A stretch of DNA of 64,000 nt from Cyanobium sp. Aljojuca 7A6 (GTDB taxonomy: Bacteria > Cyanobacteriota > Cyanobacteriia > PCC-6307 > Cyanobiaceae), in assembly GCF_024346455.1 (NCBI RefSeq), contig NZ_JAGQCY010000015.1, forward strand, positions 1 through 64,000, given 5' to 3'. The notes beneath the pieces are model-generated. The model was not told the origin of the DNA. It was given only the letters and a program-made list of their open reading frames with translations, and made no database searches. Within the stretch, counting starts at the first letter, position 1. Every line of letters begins with the position of its first letter. The translations under genes and the position numbers were made by a program. This document shows positions 43,119 to 55,700 of the stretch, piece by piece.

Positions 43119-44366
43119 TCAGGCATCGGGGCGCTGGGCCACCAGGGCTTCGTAGGCCGTGCAGAAGGCCTCGCCCAGGGAATCCCGCAGCGGCCCGTCG
43201 TGGCGGAAGGCCTCCAGGGCATCGGCCTGACAGGTGGGCAGGGAGGGGGCACCCACCGGGGCTTCCACATAGGTGTTCAGATCGCTGCGAGGACCGGGGT
43301 CGAGCCGGCGCTCGATGCCGTCGAGCCCCGCCGCGAGCACGGCGGCCTGGAGCAGGTAGGGGTTGGCGGCGCCGTCGCCGAGGCGCAGCTCGATCCGCTG
43401 GTCGTCGGGGATGCGCACCATGTGGGTGCGGTTGTTGCCGCCGTAACTGATCCAGGAGGGTGACCAGGTGGCGCCGGAGCTGGTGACGGAGCGGGCCAGG
43501 CGCCGGTAACTGCCAGCCACAGGGTTGGTGAGGGCGCACAGGGCCGGGGCATGGGCCAGCAGGCCGGCGACAAACTGATAGGCCAGTTCCGACAGGCCCT
43601 TCTCCCCCGCCGGGTCATGAAACACGTTGTGCCCCGCCTCGTCCCAGAGCGAGGCATGCAGGTGGGCGCCGTTGCCGGTGAGGGCCGCGATCGGCTTGGG
43701 CTGGAAGCTCACGCGGACCCCATGGCGTTCGGCCTGGGCGGCCGCCATCACGCGGAAAAAGGCATGGCGATCGGCCGTCAGCAGCGATTCGGCATAGGTC
43801 CAGTTGAGCTCGAACTGGCCGTTGGCGTCTTCGTGATCGGCCTGGTATGGCCCCCAGCCGAGGGTCTCCATGCCCTCCAGCAGCGCACTGATCAGGGGGT
43901 AGTGCCGCATCAGGGCCAGCTGGTCGTAGCAGGGCTTCGACTGCCGGTCGAGGCCATCGGCGATGGCGTCCCGCTCCGGGTCCATCAGGAAGAACTCCGC
44001 CTCGACGCCACTGCGGAACTGCAGGCCCAGGGCGGCCGCCTTGGCGATCTGCCGCTGCAGCACCCGCCTGGGGGACTGCTCCAGCACCTGCCCTTCCACC
44101 TGCAGATCCGTCGCCACCCAGGCCACCTCGCGCTGCCAGGGGAGCACCATCAAGCTGGTGGGATCGGGGATTGCCAGCACGTCCGGGTCGGCCGGCGTCA
44201 TGTCCAGCCAGGCGGCGAAACCGGCGAAGCCGGCTCAGGAACGGGCCAGTTCGGCGGCCGCGGCGGCAGGCACCAGCTTGGCCCGCTGCACCCCGAACAG
44301 ATCGCAGAACGAAAAGAGGAAGTGCCGGATGCCATGGGTGGCGGCGAAGCGGGCCAGATCGGTCAT
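43119..44366 (-). pseudogene. glnT: GlnT-type (type III-like) glutamine-synthetase family ligase, interrupted by an in-frame TGA
   Basis: A 415-codon gene of the GlnT/gamma-glutamylmethylamide synthetase type. The first 43 codons from ATG 44366 read MTDLARF ... SFCDLFGVQRAKLVP, exactly the N-terminal beta-grasp motif of the paralogue at 51391 (SFVDLHGVSKAKAVP). A TGA at 44235-44237 then stops the frame, which continues without shift into LDMTPADPDVLAIPDP and the catalytic domain: GVEAEFFLMDP, DHEDANGQFELNW, GNGAHLHASLWDE, SWISYGGNNRTHM and IELRLGDGAANPY. The change is a single base from a sense codon (GGA Gly is likely). Catalytic residues are otherwise intact, so it is a fresh null allele, a sequencing error, or translated from an internal start as a truncated form. 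Confidence 0.82.
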
Positions 44367-46595: not shown

Positions 46596-47456
46596 GTGAC
46601 GTCCCTTCTGTTTTTTTCCCTGTGGGGATTCCAAGGCTCCCTGGCCCTGGCTCTTGAGACGGCCGAGTGTGGTGGCTTCGATGGGCTGGAGCTGAACATC
46701 CGCCATCCCTGCCTGCTGGCCGACGCGGAAGGCCCCGCCCGCCTGCGGGATTCCGGCAGGCCCCTGGTGCTGGAGGTGGTGACCGGCGGCGGCTATGTGC
46801 CGGAGCTGGGCTGCACAGCGGAGCAACACCTGGCGGAGTTGGACGCGCTGCTGCGCGGCTGCGTCGGGTTACGGCCCCATCGGGTGACCGTGCTCACCGG
46901 CAGCGATGCCTGGCCGCTTGAACGACAACGCTCTTTTCTGGCTGAGGCGCTGGCGCTGGCGGAAGCCACCGGTCTGGCGGTGAGCTTCGAAACCCACCGA
47001 TCCCGCTGCCTGGGGATGCCCTGGACCATTGGCCCCCTGCTGGACGCCCTGCCCGGGCTGCGGCTCACGGCGGATCTCAGCCACTGGTGTGTTGTCGCCG
47101 AGCGGCTGATGACCCCGGAACTGGAGCCGGTCCAGGCGATGGCGGATCGGGTGGACCACATCCATGCCCGGGTGGGCCATGCCCAGGGTCCTCAGGTGTC
47201 CCACCCCTTCGCCCCCGAGCATGGCGAGGCGTTGGCGGCCCACCTGGCCTGCTGGCAACTGTTCAGCGAACGGGCCCTGAAGCGGGGGGCACCGCCGCCG
47301 AGCTTCACGCCCGAATTCGGTCCGGACGGCTACATGCCCACCCTGCCCTTCACCAACCAGCCGGTGGCCGATCTGCTGACGATCAATACCGCCATGGCCG
47401 GTTGGTTGCGTCGCCTTTTTCCAGCTGCAGCCGGCGATAGGATAGGTTCACAGTGA
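46596..47456 (+). CDS. Xylose-isomerase-like TIM-barrel protein
   Basis: A 286-residue protein of the AP endonuclease 2/xylose isomerase-like fold. Repeating barrel strands: FDGLELNIRHP, LVLEVVTGGGYVPELG, HRVTVLTGSDAW, VSFETHRSRCLG, LRLTADLSHWCVVAER and DHIHARVGHAQGPQ, with metal-binding Glu, His and Asp residues as in the family. The start is a GTG at 46596. It resembles sugar phosphate or hydroxypyruvate isomerase-like proteins; substrate unknown. Divergent from the desaturase. Confidence 0.82.
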   Translation: MTSLLFFSLWGFQGSLALALETAECGGFDGLELNIRHPCLLADAEGPARLRDSGRPLVLEVVTGGGYVPELGCTAEQHLAELDALLRGCVGLRPHRVTVLTGSDAWPLERQRSFLAEALALAEATGLAVSFETHRSRCLGMPWTIGPLLDALPGLRLTADLSHWCVVAERLMTPELEPVQAMADRVDHIHARVGHAQGPQVSHPFAPEHGEALAAHLACWQLFSERALKRGAPPPSFTPEFGPDGYMPTLPFTNQPVADLLTINTAMAGWLRRLFPAAAGDRIGSQ

Positions 47457-47472: not shown

Positions 47473-47688
47473 ATGGACATGACGGAAGCTCCGATCGCAA
47501 CTCCTGCAGCCACCCTTTCCTCCGCAGGATCCGATCCTCGCCAGGCCGTGCTGGTCGCTTCCCTGCGCGCCCGCTACGCGATCGCCGATCAGCGCCAGGA
47601 TGCCGACGCCAAGCGCGCCTTGTTCAAGGAGGCCGTCTATCTGGGCATCCGCCCCGACGCGTACCAGGGCTCCAGCAGCGCCGCGTAG
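47473..47688 (+). CDS. Small hypothetical protein
   Basis: A 71-residue protein. The N-terminus is Ala/Pro/Thr-rich; the C-terminal part (RQAVLVASLRARYAIADQRQ, DADAKRALFKEAVYLGIRP) is amphipathic helix. Not recognised. Its last 52 bp overlap the 3' end of the Rieske oxygenase gene on the other strand. Several starts (GTG 47470, ATG 47473, ATG 47479) are possible. The ordered composition makes it plausible, not certain. Confidence 0.5.
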   Translation: MDMTEAPIATPAATLSSAGSDPRQAVLVASLRARYAIADQRQDADAKRALFKEAVYLGIRPDAYQGSSSAA

Positions 47689-48686
47689 ATCGCCTGCTGG
47701 TGCAGGATCCGGGCCTCCAGTCGGTGGGGAGGTCCCGTGCGGAATCCTTCGCCGTAGCCCCGCTGGGCGGATTCCACCAGGACGCGGTCTTCGGCCAGAA
47801 AGCTGACCATCTCCGCCATCAGAACGCCGCCTTCGCCCTTGCGGGCTTCCGGGCCCAGCAGCCACACCTGCATCGTGCAGCTTGTGAGGTTCTCAGGCAG
47901 AAACTGGATCAGGGCCAGCCGCCCGTCGGGCCACAGCAGCAGGTGGTTCCAGGGCGGCAGGCCGAAGGTGAGGAATTCGGTCTCCCCGTCCTGCCACGGG
48001 GTGGCCAGCAGATTGGCCCAGGTGCCGAAGCGGTGGCTGTAGTGGCGCACAGGGCCCTGCATCCTGTGCAAGGTGGTGGGATGGGCGATGGCGACGTGGT
48101 AGTCGTCGAGGGTGTTGTCGTGGGCGATCTTCCAGTTGCAGGCCAGCGTTTGCCTGTGAAAGGCCAGGGGCACCAGGGGCTGGCTGAGGGCTTTGGCGGC
48201 TTCCTGCAGGGGTAGATCCAGCTGGTCGTCGAGGGGGATCGGATCGGCCCCAAGGGCCACCCAGATCAGGGAGGCCCGCACCTGACAACCGAGCGCCTCA
48301 AGCGGCCAGGCGCCGCGATCGAACGGGTCGACGAACTCCGCTTCCCGGGCGGCCGCCAGCAGCGTGCCGCCCAGGTCGTAGGTCCAGCCGTGGTAGGGGC
48401 ACACCAGCCTGCGGCAGGCCACGGAGCCTTCGGTCGGCTCGTGGAAGGCCACGGCCCGGTGGGGACAGCGGTTGCGGAAGGCCCGCACGAGGCCGTCGCT
48501 GTCGTGGCAGAGCAGGACAGGAAGGCCCAGAAGCTCCAGCGCCCGCACGTGCCCGGGCGGCAGATCGGCGGCGGCGGCGACGGGATGCCAGAAGCGGGTG
48601 GCGACGTGCTGGCGCTCGAGGGCGGCCACGGCTTCGGAGCGGTAAAGCTCTGGCGGCAGAAAGGCGGCTGCGGGGGCGGAATCCAT
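47637..48686 (-). CDS. Rieske non-heme iron oxygenase, alpha subunit
   Basis: A 349-residue oxygenase. The Rieske [2Fe-2S] ligands are CPHRA and CPYHGW (Cys-x-His ... Cys-x-x-His). The mononuclear iron site is NWKIAHDNTLDDYHVAIAHP with the two His, and the facial carboxylate is probably the Asp in LAEDRVLVE. Size and motif spacing are those of single-component alpha subunits that do N- or O-demethylation or hydroxylate choline/carnitine-like substrates. It starts 10 bp after the ABC ATPase gene and ends the guanidine operon. No reductase is adjacent; cellular ferredoxin could supply electrons. Substrate unknown. Confidence 0.9.
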   Translation of the reverse strand: MDSAPAAAFLPPELYRSEAVAALERQHVATRFWHPVAAAADLPPGHVRALELLGLPVLLCHDSDGLVRAFRNRCPHRAVAFHEPTEGSVACRRLVCPYHGWTYDLGGTLLAAAREAEFVDPFDRGAWPLEALGCQVRASLIWVALGADPIPLDDQLDLPLQEAAKALSQPLVPLAFHRQTLACNWKIAHDNTLDDYHVAIAHPTTLHRMQGPVRHYSHRFGTWANLLATPWQDGETEFLTFGLPPWNHLLLWPDGRLALIQFLPENLTSCTMQVWLLGPEARKGEGGVLMAEMVSFLAEDRVLVESAQRGYGEGFRTGPPHRLEARILHQQAIYAALLEPWYASGRMPR

Positions 48687-48696
48687 CGAAGAGCGC

Positions 48697-49464
48697 TCAG
48701 AGCAGGGAGCCATCCAGGCTGCGTAGGCGGCCCGCGAGCTCCTCGCGCAGCTCAAGAAAGGGTTGGGACACCCGCAGGTGGCGCAGATCGGAACGGTCCA
48801 GCCGCACGTCGACGCTGTGAACGATCCTGCCGGGTCGCGGCGCCATAATGTGCACCGTGCCGGCGAGAAGCAGGGCTTCCTCGATGTCGTGGGTGATCAG
48901 CAGGGCCGTGAGCCCCGTGGTCTTCCAGAGGTCTTGCAGGAATTCCTGCATCGATTCTCTGATCTGCAGATCGAGGGCCCCGAAGGGTTCGTCCAGGAGC
49001 AGAACCTTCGGCTCGGTGGCCAGGGCCCGGGCGATCGCCACCCGCTGCTGCATGCCCCCGGAGAGTTCCCTCGGCAGCAGCCGGGCCGCATCGGCCAGCC
49101 CGACCACGTCGAGGAAGTAGGAGGTCCGCTCCCGGATCTCCGCCTTCCCCCTGCCCTGGAGCGACAGGCCGAAGGCGACGTTCTGGGCCGCCGTGAGCCA
49201 GGGGTAGAGGCTGTATTTCTGGAACACCATGCCCCGGTCGGAGCCGGGGCGCTGGACCAGCTCGCCGTCGAGGTGGATGGTGCCCTCGCTGGGCTGCTCC
49301 AGACCGGCGATCAGGCGCATCACGGTGGATTTCCCGGACCCCGAACTCCCCACCAGGGCCATGAACTGACCCGAAACCAACTCAAAACTGATGTCCTGGA
49401 GCACGAGCTTGCAATCCCGGCCATCACCGAAGCTCTTGGAAACCTGGGAAACCTGAAGGTGCAT
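48697..49464 (-). CDS. ABC transporter ATPase, guanidine-operon uptake system
   Basis: A 255-residue ATPase of the nitrate/taurine/sulfonate class. Walker A GSSGSGKSTVMRLIAGLEQP, signature LSGGMQQRVAIARAL, Walker B KVLLLDEPFGALD and the switch His in LLITHDIEEALLLA. It energises the permease five bases upstream. In Synechocystis a transporter of this class forms part of the guanidine-use cluster (sll1080-sll1082), so the likely cargo is guanidine or a related cation. Confidence 0.92.
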   Translation of the reverse strand: MHLQVSQVSKSFGDGRDCKLVLQDISFELVSGQFMALVGSSGSGKSTVMRLIAGLEQPSEGTIHLDGELVQRPGSDRGMVFQKYSLYPWLTAAQNVAFGLSLQGRGKAEIRERTSYFLDVVGLADAARLLPRELSGGMQQRVAIARALATEPKVLLLDEPFGALDLQIRESMQEFLQDLWKTTGLTALLITHDIEEALLLAGTVHIMAPRPGRIVHSVDVRLDRSDLRHLRVSQPFLELREELAGRLRSLDGSLL

Positions 49465-49469
49465 GGTGT

Positions 49470-50246
49470 TCAGTTGGCCCAGGAACAGGCCCGTCGCATC
49501 AGGAAACGGAAGCCAAGATCGATGATCAAGCCGATCAAGCCGATCACGATGAGGCCGAAGAAGATCTCATCGGTGCGCAGGAATCTCTGGGCCAGGCTGA
49601 TGCGTTTGCCCAAGCCTTCGTTGGCCGCCACCAGTTCAGCGACGATCACGAGATTCCAGGCCGAGGCCATGTTGATCCGGTAGGTGTCGAGCACCTGGGG
49701 CGCGATGAAGGGCGCCACCACCCTGGTGAGGATCGGTAAGCCCCGGCCCCCCAGGGTAAGGGCCGTTTCCACCAGTTCGGAAGGAACGAACTTCACCGCG
49801 TCCATGATCATCAGGGTGTTGAAGAAAAAGGTGCCGATGAAGATGAGCATCACCTTCGGCAGTTCTTCAAGACCGAAGTAAATGATCAGCAGGGGAATGA
49901 AGGCCGGCGCCGGCATGTACCGGATCAGAGCCATGAGCGGCTCCAGGAAGTGGCAGATCTTCCGGTTGGTGCCCATGGCGATGCCGATCGGCAGGGCCAG
50001 CCCTGCAGAGATCATGAATCCCAGGAAGACTCTCCGGACGCTGGCCACCGCATCGGCCACCAGGATTCCTTGCTGAAATTGGTCGCTGCCCGCCAACCAC
50101 ACTGCCCTTGGCCCAGGCAGGAAGAGCTTGTCGACCATGCCGCTGGAGGTGACCAGCCACCACGCCACAAAGACCGTGAGGATGCCGAGCACCCCCAGAA
50201 CCCAGGGGTGGGAGAAGAAGCGCCGCAGGGGGGGAGACCAGACCAT
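49470..50246 (-). CDS. ABC transporter permease, guanidine-operon uptake system
   Basis: About 258 residues from ATG 50246 (a TTG at 50255 overlapping the previous stop is the alternative). Six membrane helices and the cytoplasmic coupling loop typical of the SsuC/TauC/NrtB class: ALTLGGRGLPILTRVVAPFI, which corresponds to the EAA motif. It lies between the binding protein and the ATPase with gaps of a few bases. Confidence 0.92.
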   Translation of the reverse strand: MVWSPPLRRFFSHPWVLGVLGILTVFVAWWLVTSSGMVDKLFLPGPRAVWLAGSDQFQQGILVADAVASVRRVFLGFMISAGLALPIGIAMGTNRKICHFLEPLMALIRYMPAPAFIPLLIIYFGLEELPKVMLIFIGTFFFNTLMIMDAVKFVPSELVETALTLGGRGLPILTRVVAPFIAPQVLDTYRINMASAWNLVIVAELVAANEGLGKRISLAQRFLRTDEIFFGLIVIGLIGLIIDLGFRFLMRRACSWAN

Positions 50247-50251
50247 GGTGG

Positions 50252-51262
50252 TCAAGGGGCGTTGTCGACGAACTGGGAATTCAGCAGATTGGTCAGGTCA
50301 GGCTTGCTCTTGGCCAGACCCGTATCCACCAGGAACGCGCTGATCTGCTCGGCGGCATAGGGAAGAGAGAGCATCGTGGTACCAGGTTTGAAGTTGCTGC
50401 GGTTTTCCTCGAGGGTCTGAATCGTGGTGCCGGCGTTGTACTCCTTGAATTCCGCCTCGCTGACACCGGCGCGCTCCACAAGGATCGGCAGGGTGCCGGC
50501 GGGATCGTCCTTGATGGTCTTGAGCGTGGCAAACCAGGCATTGACGATCTTCTGGACTTTCTCGGGATTGTTGGCGACGAAGTCCGTGCGGCAGACGAGC
50601 AGATCGCTGATCGCACCGGGATGGTCCTTGGAGGTGGCCAGGGCCCGGCTGCCTGGACGCTTCAGGGCCTGGGTGGTGAAGGGGGCATAGACGCCCGCCG
50701 CATCCACCCTGCCGGCGGCGAAGGCCGCGGCAGCGGCGCCGGTTTCCAGGGGGACAAAGGTGATGTCCTTGGCGGAAAGACCCGCGTCCTTGAGCACTTT
50801 CAACAGCAGGAAGTGGTCGACCGTGCCTTCTTCGGCGGCAACCTTCTTGCCCTTCAGGCCTGGAATCGAGGTGATTTCCGCGGCGGCGATGATCTGGTCA
50901 TTGCCTGTGGAGAAATCGTTCTGGAGTACGACCTGCAGATCCGCTCCGCCAGCCACGGAACTGATGGTGTCGTTCAGGGTCTGGCTGTTGCAGTCGAGCT
51001 GGCCAGCGTTGAGGGCGTTGATCGAGTCGAGGTAGCCGTCAAACCATTGCATGGAGGCCGCGACGCCTTCCCCCTTGAACAGCTCCTTGACTTCGGTGAC
51101 CTTCCAGGGGAACCATCCCGGCCAGGCGCTGTAGCCGATTTTCACGGGCGCTTCCTGGCTCACCGGTTGCTGGCAACCTGCCAGGAGTCCTCCCCCGAGG
51201 GTGGCGACCAAAACGATGGAAAGGGCCCGGCGTTGACGACGGAACAAAGAGAGTTTCAACAT
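50252..51262 (-). CDS. ABC transporter substrate-binding lipoprotein, guanidine-operon uptake system
   Basis: A 336-residue binding protein of the NMT1/SsuA-like class. Lipoprotein signal with lipobox LLAGC at residues about 25-30. The mature part has KIGYSAWPGWFPW, DGYLDSINALNAGQLDCNSQ, SIPGLKGKKVAAEEGTVDHF and AFAAGRVDAAGVYAPF. Aromatic residues (Tyr, Trp, Trp, Phe, Trp) early in the first lobe suit binding a flat cation such as guanidinium. It follows the GlnT-type gene after 128 bp, which may hold a second promoter. Confidence 0.92.
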   Translation of the reverse strand: MLKLSLFRRQRRALSIVLVATLGGGLLAGCQQPVSQEAPVKIGYSAWPGWFPWKVTEVKELFKGEGVAASMQWFDGYLDSINALNAGQLDCNSQTLNDTISSVAGGADLQVVLQNDFSTGNDQIIAAAEITSIPGLKGKKVAAEEGTVDHFLLLKVLKDAGLSAKDITFVPLETGAAAAAFAAGRVDAAGVYAPFTTQALKRPGSRALATSKDHPGAISDLLVCRTDFVANNPEKVQKIVNAWFATLKTIKDDPAGTLPILVERAGVSEAEFKEYNAGTTIQTLEENRSNFKPGTTMLSLPYAAEQISAFLVDTGLAKSKPDLTNLLNSQFVDNAP

Positions 51263-51390: not shown

Positions 51391-52755
51391 TCAGAAGAAC
51401 TCCAGATAACGTTGCTGTTCCCATTCGGAAACCGCAGAGTGATAGGACTCCCACTCTTCACGTTTGTAGGTGATAAACGACTTGAACATGGCATCACCGA
51501 ATACGCTTTCAGCAAGTGGATCCCGGGCGAAGGCATCGACGGCCTCACCGAGGGTTCGGGGCAGCATGGTCAGGCCCCGTTCGGCGCGTTCCGCTGCGCT
51601 GAGTGTGTAGGCATTCACCAGATTGGGTGCCCCGGGATCGAGTTCTTCTCGGATCCCCTCCAGCCCAGCCGCGAGCATCAGGGCGGCGCCAAGATAGGGG
51701 TTGCAGGAGATGTCGGCGGCACGGCATTCCACCCTTCCCCCTGGTGAGGGAATCCGTAGCATGTTGGTGCGGTTGTTATTGCCGTAGCAAACGAAGACCG
51801 GTGCCCAGGTGAATCCCGACATGCTTCCCTGGGCTACCAGCCGCTTGTAGCTGTTGACCGTCGGAGCGATCACCGCGCAGATGGCGGGCGCATGGCGGAG
51901 CACGCCGGCGATGAAGTGTTCGGCCAGCCGGGTGACTTTCCCCGGCGTGGCTTCGGGGGTCGCGAACAGGTTGGCGCCCGTCTGTCCATCCGCCAGGGAC
52001 ATGTTGAAGTGGGCGCCGCTGCCGGTTCGATCGCCGAAGGGCTTGGGCATGAACGTGGCCAGCAGGCCGTGACGATGGGCGATCTCCTTGGCCATCAGCT
52101 TGAAGAAAGTCAGCCGATCGGCCATGGTGAGGACCTCGGCGTAGTCGAAGTCGGTCTCGAACTGGCCAGGGCCATCTTCGTGATCGAAGGAATAGACGCC
52201 CCAGCCAAGATCGTTCATCGCCTGCACCAGTTCGCCCAGCCAGGGCAGGTTGTCGAGCAGGCCGCGCACGTCGTAGGCGGGTTTGTCGAGGGTGTCGCGA
52301 TCGCTGTAGGGAACCCAGCCGCCCGCCGCCCCTTTCTTGAGCACGAAGAACTCGGTCTCGATGCCGAGGTTGAAGCGGAAGCCCATCGCAGCGGCCTCCT
52401 GGCGGACACGGCCAAGGATGTGGCGGCTGCAGGCCCCAAAGGGCTGGCCGTGCAGATGCAGGTCACTGGCGAACCAGGCCACCTCCCGTTGCCACGGCAG
52501 CACTGTGACACTGGCTGGATCGGGCACGGCGGCCACCTCGTCGTCGCTGACCTCCTGGGGGACCCCGTCGAGGGCCGCCCCGGTGAACAGTTCGGAGCCG
52601 GCCATCATCTGGGCCAGGTGCTCGAGGGGCACGGCCTTGGCCTTGCTCACCCCGTGCAGATCCACGAAGCTCGCCAGGGCGTAGCGGACGCCCTTGGCCC
52701 GCAGGTCGGCCTGCAGCGCTGTGGTCGGGTCGGAGGCAGGATGCTGGTGGCTCAT
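51391..52755 (-). CDS. glnT: GlnT-type glutamine-synthetase family ligase in the guanidine operon
   Basis: A 454-residue ligase of the GS superfamily (GlnT/gamma-glutamylmethylamide synthetase type). N-terminal SFVDLHGVSKAKAVP, metal-binding LGIETEFFVLKKG, VYSFDHEDGPGQFETDF, GDRTGSGAHFNMSLADG, substrate loop YGNNNRTNMLRIP and VECRAADISCNPY. It joins an amine or ammonia to glutamate using ATP. It is one base from the HypB-like gene, inside the guanidine operon, where the Synechocystis cluster has none. It could capture ammonia from guanidine and urea hydrolysis, or a methylamine-type product. Paralogue of the broken gene at 43119. Confidence 0.9.
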   Translation of the reverse strand: MSHQHPASDPTTALQADLRAKGVRYALASFVDLHGVSKAKAVPLEHLAQMMAGSELFTGAALDGVPQEVSDDEVAAVPDPASVTVLPWQREVAWFASDLHLHGQPFGACSRHILGRVRQEAAAMGFRFNLGIETEFFVLKKGAAGGWVPYSDRDTLDKPAYDVRGLLDNLPWLGELVQAMNDLGWGVYSFDHEDGPGQFETDFDYAEVLTMADRLTFFKLMAKEIAHRHGLLATFMPKPFGDRTGSGAHFNMSLADGQTGANLFATPEATPGKVTRLAEHFIAGVLRHAPAICAVIAPTVNSYKRLVAQGSMSGFTWAPVFVCYGNNNRTNMLRIPSPGGRVECRAADISCNPYLGAALMLAAGLEGIREELDPGAPNLVNAYTLSAAERAERGLTMLPRTLGEAVDAFARDPLAESVFGDAMFKSFITYKREEWESYHSAVSEWEQQRYLEFF

Positions 52756-52756
52756 C

Positions 52757-53458
52757 TCAGGCGTGGATCAGGGCGGGGGGGCTTTGGACGGCGTTCAGCT
52801 GTGTTCCGAGCCAGTCGTGCCAGGCGTCGAAGCCCTCGCCGCTGGTGGCGGAGAGGCGGAACACGGCGGTGTGGGGATTCACCTGGCGGATGTGGGTTTC
52901 GATCCGCTCCACATCCACCGGCAGGTGGGGCAGCAGATCCACCTTCGTGATCAGGACGCAATCGGCTTCCCGGAACATCACCGGGTATTTGAGCGGCTTG
53001 TCGTCACCCTCGGTGACGCTCAGGAGCGCCACCTTGCGGTGCTCACCGATGGCGAATTCGGCGGGGCAGACCAGGTTGCCGACGTTCTCCACCCAAAGCA
53101 GATCCAGTTCGGCCGGATCCAGCCGCTGCTGCAGGAGTTTCAACCCGCCGCTCACCATGGCCGCATCGAGATGGCAGGCGCGGCCGGTGGTGATCGGCAC
53201 GACCGGAATCCCGACGGCCCCCAGTCGCTCGGCATCGAGCAGGGTGGTCATGTCGCCTTCGAGCACGGCCATCGCCCAGCGGCTGGAGAGGGCGGCGAGG
53301 CTGCGCTCCAGCAGGGACGTCTTGCCGGCCCCGGGGCTGCTCATCACGTTGAGGCAGAGCAGGTTCCAGGCGTCGAAATGGGCGCGGTTGTGGTCGGCCC
53401 GGTGCTGGTTGGCCGCCAGCAGGTTGAGGCCGAGGTTGTCTTCGAGGGGCATGTGCAT
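52757..53458 (-). CDS. HypB-like nickel-insertion GTPase for guanidine hydrolase
   Basis: A 233-residue GTPase of the HypB/UreG class. P-loop [18 protein letters not shown], switch [28 protein letters not shown] with the nickel-type Cys, and base-recognition [10 protein letters not shown]. The position after a HypA-like gene and a GdmH-like gene, with no hydrogenase genes, matches the accessory proteins (GhaB in Synechocystis, sll1079) that load Ni2+ into guanidine hydrolase. The His-rich N-terminus of hydrogenase HypB is short here. Confidence 0.9.
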
Positions 53459-53464
53459 GGCGGC

Positions 53465-53866
53465 TCAGCAGGCGGGGGTGGGACAGGAAGCGGTGGGCGG
53501 TGGGGTGGCGGTTTCGAAGCCATAGGCGACGGAGCGGATCCGCAGCTCGCGGCCGCTGACGATCTCCTCCATGGGGTGCTGGCAGCAGGGGGAGTGGAAC
53601 CCGTCGGCCGGATCGGGGTTGTAGGTGGCCTGGCAGCGGACGCAGCGCCCCACCAGGGGCACCGTCTCGATCACCAGTTCGGACCCGTCGAGCCAGGTGC
53701 CCTTCACCGCATCGGACCAGGTGACCACCAGCTGATCGGGCTCCACGCAGGTGAAGGTGCCCACCTCGAGGTGGACCCGGTTCACCCGGGGCCGCCGGGG
53801 GGCGTGCTGCTGCTTCCACTCGTGCATGGAGAGGAGCAGGCAGCGGGTCATGTCGACTTCGTGCAC
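53465..53866 (-). CDS. HypA-like nickel chaperone for guanidine hydrolase
   Basis: A 133-residue HypA-family protein. The N-terminus MHEVDMTRCLL keeps the Met-His-Glu nickel site. The zinc domain is GRCVRCQATYNP with a second pair CCQHP, and the tail CPTPAC adds two cysteines. As with the HypB-like partner, the lack of hydrogenase genes and the adjacent guanidine hydrolase point to the GhaA role (sll1078 in Synechocystis). It starts four bases after gdmH. Confidence 0.9.
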   Translation of the reverse strand: MHEVDMTRCLLLSMHEWKQQHAPRRPRVNRVHLEVGTFTCVEPDQLVVTWSDAVKGTWLDGSELVIETVPLVGRCVRCQATYNPDPADGFHSPCCQHPMEEIVSGRELRIRSVAYGFETATPPPTASCPTPAC

Positions 53867-53870
53867 GCCC

Positions 53871-55085
53871 CTATCTCCAGGCGCGGTCGACCTGCATGTT
53901 GCAGTCGCTGTGCAGCCAGGCAGGGGCTGACTTGCGGGGCAGCTGGCCGCTCACCACCAGGTGGGCCATGGTGTCGCAGATGACCCGGGTGGCCATCAGG
54001 GAGGTCATGTCGCTGACGTCGTAGGGGGGGGAAACCTCCACCACCTCAAGGCCGCAGACCGGAACGTTGCGCACGATCAGCTCCAGCAGCTTGAGGGCTT
54101 CGCGCGGCAGCAGCCCGCCCGGCTCGGGCCAGCCTGTGCCTGGCACGAAACCGGCATCGATGCAGTCGATGTCGAAGGAGATGTAGACGCAGTCGGTGCC
54201 GTCGGTGGCCCGCTCGATGGCGAATTTCGCCGCCGCCTCCAGGCCCATGTCGCAGATGTCGGTGACGGTGAGCACGTTGGTGCCCCGCTCGCGGCAGACC
54301 TTCACCCCTTCGCGCGGCACTTGCCAACCGCCGATGCCCAGCTGCACCAGGTTTTCGGCTGGGGCATTGGCCATGTTGGTGGCATGGAACCACGGGGTGG
54401 TGTGCATGCGTTCGTCGAGGTCGGTCTCCTGGGTGTCGACGTGGCGATCGAAGTGGATGATGCCCACCTTCTTGTCGCCGAGATGGCGGCAGACGCCCCG
54501 GACGGTGGGGAAGCCGATCGAGTGGTCGCCCCCCAGGATGATCGGGAAGGCGCCACTGGCGAACACGTGGGCGATGCCCTTGGAGATCTGGTCGAAGCTC
54601 TTCTCGTTGTTGGCGGGGATGGTGAAGATGTCCCCCACGTCGCAGAGGGTGATCTGCTCGCGCAGGTCGACCCCCATCTCGTAGTTGTAAGGGGTGTACA
54701 GGGCGGAGATGCGCCGAATGCCCTGGGGGCCGAAGCGAGTGCCGGGGCGGTAGGTGGTGCCGCTGTCGTGGGGGACGCCCACCACAGCCACGTCGAACTC
54801 CCCGACCCGGTTCACGTCCTCCAGGTACGGGGCCTTCATGAAGGTGTTGATGCCGGCGTAGTGGGGCAGCTCGCCGCGGGAGAAGGTGGAGATGCGCCGA
54901 TCGACGATGCTGCTGGCCGCCTCCAGGCCGTAGCGCAGGCCCTGATCGACCTCTTGCTGCCAGCCCGTCAGGGGCAGGGACGCTTCCTTCTCCAGGGCCC
55001 GGGCCCCTTCGCTTCCGGTCGGATGGCCGCCCCGATCAAAGGCGTCAGCCGCATCGGCGGCAGTGCCGCTGGACGGTTCGTTCAT
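53871..55085 (-). CDS. gdmH: Ni2+-dependent guanidine hydrolase (ureohydrolase family)
   Basis: A 404-residue ureohydrolase-fold enzyme; the known cyanobacterial GdmH splits guanidine into urea and ammonia and is often misnamed agmatinase. Metal ligands: LGGDHSIGFP, HFDRHVDTQETD (DxHxD) and SFDIDCIDAGF, with GTGWPEPGGLLPREAL as in the GdmH group. The roughly 60-residue N-terminal extension before the core (LPLTGWQQEVDQGLRYG) is longer than in agmatinases. Start ATG 55085 has AGAGG at 55091-55095 and follows the riboswitch by 33 bases. HypA/B-like chaperones follow directly, supporting nickel use. Confidence 0.93.
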   Translation of the reverse strand: MNEPSSGTAADAADAFDRGGHPTGSEGARALEKEASLPLTGWQQEVDQGLRYGLEAASSIVDRRISTFSRGELPHYAGINTFMKAPYLEDVNRVGEFDVAVVGVPHDSGTTYRPGTRFGPQGIRRISALYTPYNYEMGVDLREQITLCDVGDIFTIPANNEKSFDQISKGIAHVFASGAFPIILGGDHSIGFPTVRGVCRHLGDKKVGIIHFDRHVDTQETDLDERMHTTPWFHATNMANAPAENLVQLGIGGWQVPREGVKVCRERGTNVLTVTDICDMGLEAAAKFAIERATDGTDCVYISFDIDCIDAGFVPGTGWPEPGGLLPREALKLLELIVRNVPVCGLEVVEVSPPYDVSDMTSLMATRVICDTMAHLVVSGQLPRKSAPAWLHSDCNMQVDRAWR

Positions 55086-55117
55086 GCAGACCTCTGGGCA
55101 CGGTGGGAATCGGGCGG

Positions 55118-55251
55118 TCTCCCGGGCTTTTGTCCCTCCGTGCCACTCAGCGGTGGGGACGTGAGGCCCCCGAACCGATGAATGCGCTTCTCTCGGACCA
55201 GGCATCCAATCCATTGCTGGCAAAGCCTGCAATGGAGGACCGGAACCCTAG
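55118..55251 (-). ncRNA. Guanidine-I (ykkC) riboswitch
   Basis: Read on the minus strand, all three conserved blocks of the ykkC class are present in order: CTAGGGTTCCGG (55251-55240), a variable hairpin arm, CTGGTCCGAGAGAA (from 55201), a second variable arm, and ACGG AGGGACAAAAGCCCGGGAGA written in two parts (55141-55118). The first arm CCATTGC/GCAATGG around 55232-55212 can pair. The aptamer ends 33 bases before the gdmH ATG. GGCACGG (55144-55138) within the aptamer can pair with CCGTGCC (55103-55097) next to the AGAGG ribosome-binding site, giving a candidate alternative structure that excludes the aptamer's 3' part. Guanidine binding should turn on the operon. Confidence 0.93.
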
Positions 55252-55330
55252 AAGCAACTTCCGCTCAGGCATCGTGCAGGCCCTTGCGGCTGACCGTTGT
55301 GGCGGTTGCTACTGGATCTCTTGCGCCTGC

Positions 55331-55609
55331 TCAGGTGGGGCAGGGGAGACCGGCCGCCTTGCGGTTGGTTTCGCGGCGCAGCAGCAGAAAGAGATAGTCG
55401 GGGTCCTTGTACTGGCTCGGCAGGCATTGGTGCAGCTGCTCGAGGCGGTGCCAGCACACCGTTCGCTGGATCTTCTTCAGGGTTCGCCCTTCGCGGACGA
55501 GCAGCCGCAGGGCCTTGCAGTACATCGAGTAGTTGGCCTCCAGCTCACCGATGGTGACTTTCGGAATCGTGGCCTTCGGCAGGGACGCTGGAAGCGATCG
55601 GGCGCTCAT
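55331..55609 (-). CDS. Small cyanobacterial protein, DUF3136-like (copy 2)
   Basis: A 92-residue protein from ATG 55609 with the block TIGELEANYSMYCKALRLLV, REGRTLKKIQRTVCWHRLEQ and LHQCLPSQYKDPDYLFLLLR, shared with the protein at 34223-34489. Family believed to be DUF3136; function unknown. It ends 80 bp before the guanidine riboswitch on the same strand, so readthrough into the operon is conceivable, or the operon promoter lies in 55252-55330. Confidence 0.82.
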   Translation of the reverse strand: MSARSLPASLPKATIPKVTIGELEANYSMYCKALRLLVREGRTLKKIQRTVCWHRLEQLHQCLPSQYKDPDYLFLLLRRETNRKAAGLPCPT

Positions 55610-55700
55610 CGGCCATCCTTCGGGGCAGGCCCCGCAGAGATCTGTCCACTGTGGTTCATGGCCGGCCATTGGGGCGCCCCCCAAACGGGGACATTCCGGC

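Follow-up and report, generated by a model that had tools for sequence, protein, structure and literature searches.

The window, by which we mean the whole 64,000-nucleotide stretch of Cyanobium sp. Aljojuca 7A6 that was analysed, carries a guanidine operon whose last gene encodes a Rieske non-heme iron oxygenase. This enzyme probably removes methyl (or other carbon) groups from substituted guanidines, freeing their nitrogen for the cell. More specifically, we tentatively propose, at somewhat below an even chance, a single-subunit-type Rieske monooxygenase that performs oxidative N-dealkylation, most likely of methylguanidine, and yields guanidine and an aldehyde. Guanidine has only recently been recognised as a nitrogen source, and little is known of the compounds from which it arises in nature. 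An oxygenase tracking guanidine genes across two unrelated pathways suggests that substituted guanidines are its natural substrates.

Dore et al. 2023 had already described a Rieske gene behind the guanidinase cluster in most marine Synechococcus/Cyanobium having the cluster, and had tied its iron to its absence from low-iron waters (PMC10119275). By description, their gene CK_00002251 occupies the same position, after gdmH-hypAB-ABC and under a ykkC (Guanidine-I) riboswitch; it was given as a putative Fe-S protein without a role (PMC10119275), whereas we find an oxygenase with an intact mononuclear iron site. Besides that study, our literature search retrieved nothing linking a Rieske oxygenase and guanidine genes, and nothing on methylguanidine in seawater. 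Added here are the enzyme class, the clade, the occurrence in Prochlorococcus and filamentous cyanobacteria, three genomic contexts including guanidine carboxylase, and the proposed reaction.

The oxygenase gene and its operon

The following features were identified.

55117..55262, minus strand: Guanidine-I riboswitch at the operon head (Rfam RF00442, 72.6 bits, gathering 63)
53871..55091, minus strand: gdmH, Ni-dependent guanidine hydrolase, start ATG at 55091 (aligned with Synechocystis GdmH structures 7esr/7oi1 over 381 residues, 774 bits; Pfam Arginase)
53465..53866, minus strand: hypA-like nickel chaperone (Pfam HypA)
52757..53458, minus strand: hypB-like nickel chaperone GTPase (NCBIfam TIGR00073 above cut-off)
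51391..52755, minus strand: glutamate-amine ligase resembling GmaS, annotated "type III glutamine synthetase" (TIGR03105 above cut-off)
50252..51262, minus strand: ABC substrate-binding protein, SsuA/NMT1 family (TIGR01728 above cut-off)
49470..50255, minus strand: ABC permease, TauC-like (Pfam BPD_transp_1)
48697..49464, minus strand: ABC ATPase, 10 bp before the oxygenase (Pfam ABC_tran)
47637..48686, minus strand: Rieske non-heme iron oxygenase alpha subunit (ORF, Pfam PF00355 and PF00848, AlphaFold model)
48351..48590, minus strand: its Rieske [2Fe-2S] domain, residues 33-112, ligands C74/H76/C96/H99 (Pfam, invariant columns)
47673..48146, minus strand: its catalytic domain, residues 181-338, with iron ligands H197/H202/D300 and bridging acid D194 (PF00848, CntA alignment, invariance)
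46596..47456, plus strand: convergent xylose-isomerase-like TIM barrel (co-occurrence, fold match)

On the minus strand the run thus reads riboswitch, gdmH, hypA, hypB, ligase, three-gene ABC transporter, oxygenase. Riboswitch, GdmH-type hydrolase and HypA/HypB are all three present, as in Guanidine-I-controlled gdmH operons. The preliminary description had placed the oxygenase at the end of a guanidine operon, 10 bp after the ABC ATPase. Both points hold: the ATPase gene runs down to 48697 and the oxygenase begins at 48686, and the next gene (46596-47456) is convergent. The link to guanidine itself is strongly supported by picocyanobacterial synteny, by a second riboswitch-led operon elsewhere and by linkage to guanidine carboxylase (see below). 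The operon contains no reductase gene, of the CntB type or any other, and a promoter and terminator scan found no promoters against 0.4 expected.

ORF call and translation give an open frame of 349 aa for the oxygenase, and no comparable protein is encoded on the plus strand of 47637-48686. The sites which had been described as intact, Rieske (CPHRA, CPYHGW) and mononuclear iron (DDYHVAIAH), are indeed present, and both domains score above threshold (PF00355 Rieske, 62.7 bits, cut-off 20.3; PF00848 Ring_hydroxyl_A, 49.5 bits, cut-off 24.9). The protein has the Rieske ligand pattern CxH and CxxH and, in the Ring_hydroxyl_A domain, the 2-His-1-carboxylate iron site (H197/H202/D300); C74, H76, C96, H99, H197, H202 and D300 are invariant in an alignment of 56 homologues. 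Since its dN/dS is about 0.2 (versus three relatives), the oxygenase is under purifying selection, and this constraint is looser than on GdmH (about 0.06).

The "glutamine synthetase" of the operon resembles, by its sequence, a glutamate-methylamine ligase. Its closest solved structures are 9qur ("Glutamate--methylamine ligase") and 7cql (RhGmaS), and in alignment it lacks two ammonia-site residues of glutamine synthetase, with Thr and Trp in their places. Published criteria for GmaS are loss of the ammonia-site Asp50' and of the Glu-flap glutamate, the latter being Trp in RhGmaS (PMC7948447). The ligase is missing at Prochlorococcus oxygenase loci and was not found genome-wide in nine complete or near-complete oxygenase-bearing marine Synechococcus-like genomes. 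The oxygenase is therefore independent of the ligase, and obligate coupling of the two, as in an aniline-dioxygenase-type pair, is ruled out for the marine lineages.

Fold and active site of the oxygenase

To relate the enzyme to known Rieske oxygenases, its AlphaFold model (pLDDT 93.3, pTM 0.91) was compared with solved structures. About 40 Rieske oxygenase entries match the model at Z 29.6-35.5. The best match is carnitine monooxygenase CntA (6y8j, 6y9d, 6zgp; Z 35.5, rmsd 2.3 A over 330 residues, 24% identity), which is also top in sequence profiles (E 1e-86), followed by stachydrine demethylase Stc2 (3vca, 4qup; Z 33.4, about 24% identity), likewise an N-demethylating Rieske enzyme. Ring-hydroxylating dioxygenases follow a few Z units below. 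In the predicted model, the closest folds are thus those of N-demethylating or C-N-cleaving oxygenases.

Residue equivalences with CntA, derived by sequence alignment alone, place its iron ligands H208/H213/D323 at H197/H202/D300, so that metal-site layout and acid bridge are alike. In the same alignment, CntA Y203, E205 and Y225 correspond to T192, D194 and Y216, and F258, Y315 and F319 to F238, E292 and F296. The substrate pocket differs at a critical point. Members of the quaternary-amine group V are recognised by the residue at CntA position 203, which is Tyr or Phe in Va and Asn in Vb (PMC7948474), yet Thr occupies this position in every cyanobacterial homologue aligned. Y203 binds the trimethylammonium group in CntA, and the group Vb Asn of Stc2 is likewise Thr here; with T192 in place of the ammonium-binding residue, substrate recognition must differ. 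Assignment to the group V quaternary-amine oxygenases (CntA, choline, GbcA, Stc2) is ruled out by this replacement, and glycine betaine monooxygenase GbcA in particular (NF058607) by a score of 84.7 bits against an equivalog cut-off of 670. The analogy with demethylases of quaternary amines, drawn in the preliminary description, therefore stands for the fold and fails for the pocket: the enzyme shares the architecture of amine demethylases but should not be classed among them.

Two further positions vary. An acid, E292, replaces CntA Y315 and is itself Ser in Prochlorococcus. Residue 194 (window 48105-48107), three before H197, is Asp in picocyanobacteria, but each of the 29 remaining cyanobacterial sequences in the alignment has Cys there; the adjacent Asp195 is invariant. 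Judging from the alignment, the inter-subunit electron path may be shifted where residue 194 is Cys.

Distribution and genomic contexts

We wondered how closely the oxygenase follows guanidine genes in other genomes. In a quick tree, the cyanobacterial homologues, which have the motif HDNTL(D/C)DYHV in common, form one side of a branch (SH-aLRT 99) that separates them from 41 other bacterial relatives. A guanidine link outside cyanobacteria is not supported: gdmH was found in none of 42 non-cyanobacterial oxygenase loci examined and a Guanidine-I riboswitch at none of the seven such loci searched for RNA families.

Among 390 cyanobacterial genomes, gdmH is present in 164, the oxygenase in 56 and both in 47 (Fisher p 7e-12, uncorrected for kinship). 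Absence of the gene from other gdmH clusters had been named in advance as evidence against its role. Within the window's family it is not absent: 17 of the 18 gdmH genomes carry the oxygenase, and no genome has it without gdmH. Class-wide, 117 of the 164 gdmH genomes lack it, and the oxygenase is therefore to be seen as accessory to the guanidine pathway. Identity to the Prochlorococcus proteins is 36-37% for the oxygenase versus 85% for GdmH; owing to such fast divergence, a single common substrate is not assured.

The position of the gene is well preserved. It follows the ABC ATPase in 105 of the 108 cyanobacterial loci carrying both on one strand, and in the window's family the junction is kept in the loci reaching far enough, including the divergent Prochlorococcus ones. 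The Prochlorococcus gdmH-oxygenase loci L034, L037 and L045 contain no Guanidine-I riboswitch above threshold; a Glutamine-II riboswitch lies some 5 kb downstream. In genome G362, the transporter-oxygenase pair is located 160 kb away from gdmH.

A second context was found in 13 filamentous-type genomes (genus code g90), in which a Guanidine-I riboswitch is found on the oxygenase strand, 4-6 kb upstream of that gene. These operons have the order ligase-ABC-oxygenase and lack gdmH; in the four genomes checked, gdmH-hypA-hypB is located elsewhere behind a riboswitch of its own.

Nine of the 56 oxygenase genomes lack gdmH. In five of these (G085, G121, G132, G135, G154), the oxygenase stands beside a Guanidine-I riboswitch, UAAP1/UAAP2, which are of the carboxyguanidine deiminase type, and a carboxylase; an allophanate hydrolase gene is also near the oxygenase at locus L132. 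At the position of an Asn in yeast urea carboxylase, the carboxylases checked at four of these loci carry Asp; we take this Asn to be the residue that discriminates urea from guanidine carboxylases. Asp marks guanidine carboxylases and Asn urea carboxylases (PMC12186494). In a sixth genome (G249), a Guanidine-I riboswitch lies on a contig other than that of the oxygenase, and the remaining three are only 68-70% complete.

Several cyanobacterial copies (e.g. L139, L142, L144, L156, L157) have no guanidine gene beside them. At L143, the oxygenase is accompanied by an isochorismatase-family hydrolase and by an additional, divergent ABC transporter, and gdmH there has a separate transporter; at L137, a biuret-hydrolase-like gene of the isochorismatase family is near. 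These neighbours, both from filamentous cyanobacteria, hint at biuret- or guanylurea-like compounds.

Proposed reaction and its alternatives

Free guanidine is the only compound common to the two guanidine pathways, and linkage of the oxygenase to both suggests that the enzyme supplies guanidine. The class I (Guanidine-I) riboswitch tested does not bind methylguanidine (PMC12508155). Comammox guanidinase made a trace of urea from agmatine but none from methylguanidine, arginine, creatine or guanidino acids, a specificity reported to be consistent with that of the cyanobacterial enzyme (PMC11410670). With the riboswitch tested blind to methylguanidine and guanidinase all but inactive on the substituted guanidines tested, a dealkylase would be needed for their use.

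A precedent exists in Vreelandella boliviensis, where MgdH together with the lyase MgdL, encoded in a guanidine-carboxylase operon, demethylates methylguanidine (PMC12508155). There too, an oxygenase gene has been added to a riboswitch-controlled guanidine operon, and the products proposed here, guanidine and formaldehyde, are alike; MgdH, however, is a 2-oxoglutarate/Fe(II) dioxygenase, non-homologous to the Rieske-type enzyme (PMC12508155). No Pfam domain of the former type occurs among the ten window proteins scanned. By analogy, demethylation of methylguanidine by the oxygenase is plausible.

For the complete route, we infer the reaction, the substrate, the electron donor and the roles of transporter and TIM-barrel protein as follows. 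The ABC transporter of the operon would import guanidine and small N-substituted guanidines, and general cellular ferredoxin would supply electrons to the oxygenase. The latter would hydroxylate a carbon attached to a guanidine nitrogen; the likeliest is the methyl group of methylguanidine (or of N,N-dimethylguanidine). From this intermediate, guanidine and formaldehyde would be released either spontaneously or with the aid of a partner enzyme, for which the TIM-barrel protein is a possible candidate. The freed guanidine would then switch on the riboswitch and be split by GdmH or, in other cyanobacteria, enter the carboxylase pathway.

Larger guanidino compounds are, in our judgement, the main rival to methylguanidine. 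A guanidino acid or amine (guanidinoacetate, taurocyamine, guanidinobutyrate, agmatine, homoarginine) hydroxylated next to the guanidine nitrogen would give guanidine and a larger aldehyde, and this would account for linkage to both guanidine pathways equally well. The operon transporter is SsuA/TauA-like, and such transporters carry anionic or zwitterionic compounds. Plant 2-ODD-C23 enzymes and EFE free guanidine in this way from homoarginine or arginine (PMC11018352). We nevertheless consider such substrates unlikely, because the operon has no obvious handler of a larger aldehyde or amino acid and because methylguanidine is the proposed natural substrate of MgdH, the closest precedent from a guanidine operon. 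Slightly less probable still is an unrelated nitrogen compound (betaine, methylamine, biuret-like or other) taken up by a broad transporter, with the oxygenase merely co-regulated for nitrogen scavenging. The gene is tied more tightly to the transporter than to gdmH, and the neighbours at L143 and L137 would fit; recurrent association with riboswitches specific for guanidine, and with two unrelated routes of guanidine breakdown, argues against it, as does the missing quaternary-amine pocket signature.

The pairing of ligase and oxygenase recalls the aniline (AtdA1/AtdA3A4) and naphthylamine (NpaA1) degradation systems, which likewise combine a glutamine-synthetase-like ligase with a Rieske oxygenase (PMC11335346). 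A GmaS-like ligase would here join glutamate and an alkylamine, and the oxygenase would oxidise the gamma-glutamylamide to glutamine and an aldehyde. Although the ligase has the GmaS hallmarks and forms an operon with the oxygenase in the absence of gdmH in many filamentous genomes, we regard this as improbable: unlike AtdA/NpaA1, the operon contains no amidotransferase-like gene or small subunit, the ligase is dispensable in many genomes, including the marine ones and Prochlorococcus loci described above, and such chemistry would be poorly served by a riboswitch that senses guanidine. Finally, the enzyme might oxidise guanidine itself or counter guanidine stress, e.g. by N-hydroxylation, and guanidine would induce it if the riboswitch governs the whole operon. 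This is very improbable, as GdmH and the carboxylase already dispose of guanidine and Rieske enzymes hydroxylate mainly carbon.

If dealkylation of methylguanidine is the reaction, substituted guanidines would be a nitrogen source for abundant phototrophs: with the gene in Prochlorococcus and Synechococcus, they would add overlooked organic nitrogen for abundant ocean phototrophs, and their use would depend on iron supply, as already suggested (PMC10119275). The enzyme could then be the first Rieske enzyme known to set guanidine free, through oxidative removal of an alkyl group from methylguanidine or a related compound, recruited independently of MgdH and widespread in marine and freshwater picocyanobacteria, with the TIM barrel possibly a new hemiaminal lyase; for this broader picture we see a chance that likewise falls short of even, and marginally lower than that of the reaction.

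The TIM-barrel gene and other neighbours

Within the window's family, every one of the 17 oxygenase genomes also has the convergent TIM-barrel gene, and G393 has neither; in G045 (L163), a distant genome, the TIM-barrel gene comes directly after the oxygenase. The protein has no PDB sequence matches. Its fold matches sugar isomerases/epimerases at Z 19.9, structural matches being superfamily-level only. With E132, D160, H163, H188, H190 and E240 invariant, it looks like a metal-dependent isomerase-type barrel, and it is a candidate partner of the oxygenase, as lyase or aldehyde-processing enzyme.

G393 (L154) lacks the oxygenase, the operon ligase and the TIM barrel, and has genes for a desaturase, a MetX-like hydrolase and a second ligase directly after the ABC ATPase. 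In this genome the two sets appear as if interchangeable.

Just upstream of the riboswitch in the window lies a DUF3136 gene (55331-55684, minus strand), whose position is kept in close relatives. A second GmaS-like ligase gene (43119-44345, minus strand) is located 4 kb past the operon; in the genome search it reads with one in-frame TGA in its N-terminal part here, whereas three same-genus relatives carry the gene free of this stop.
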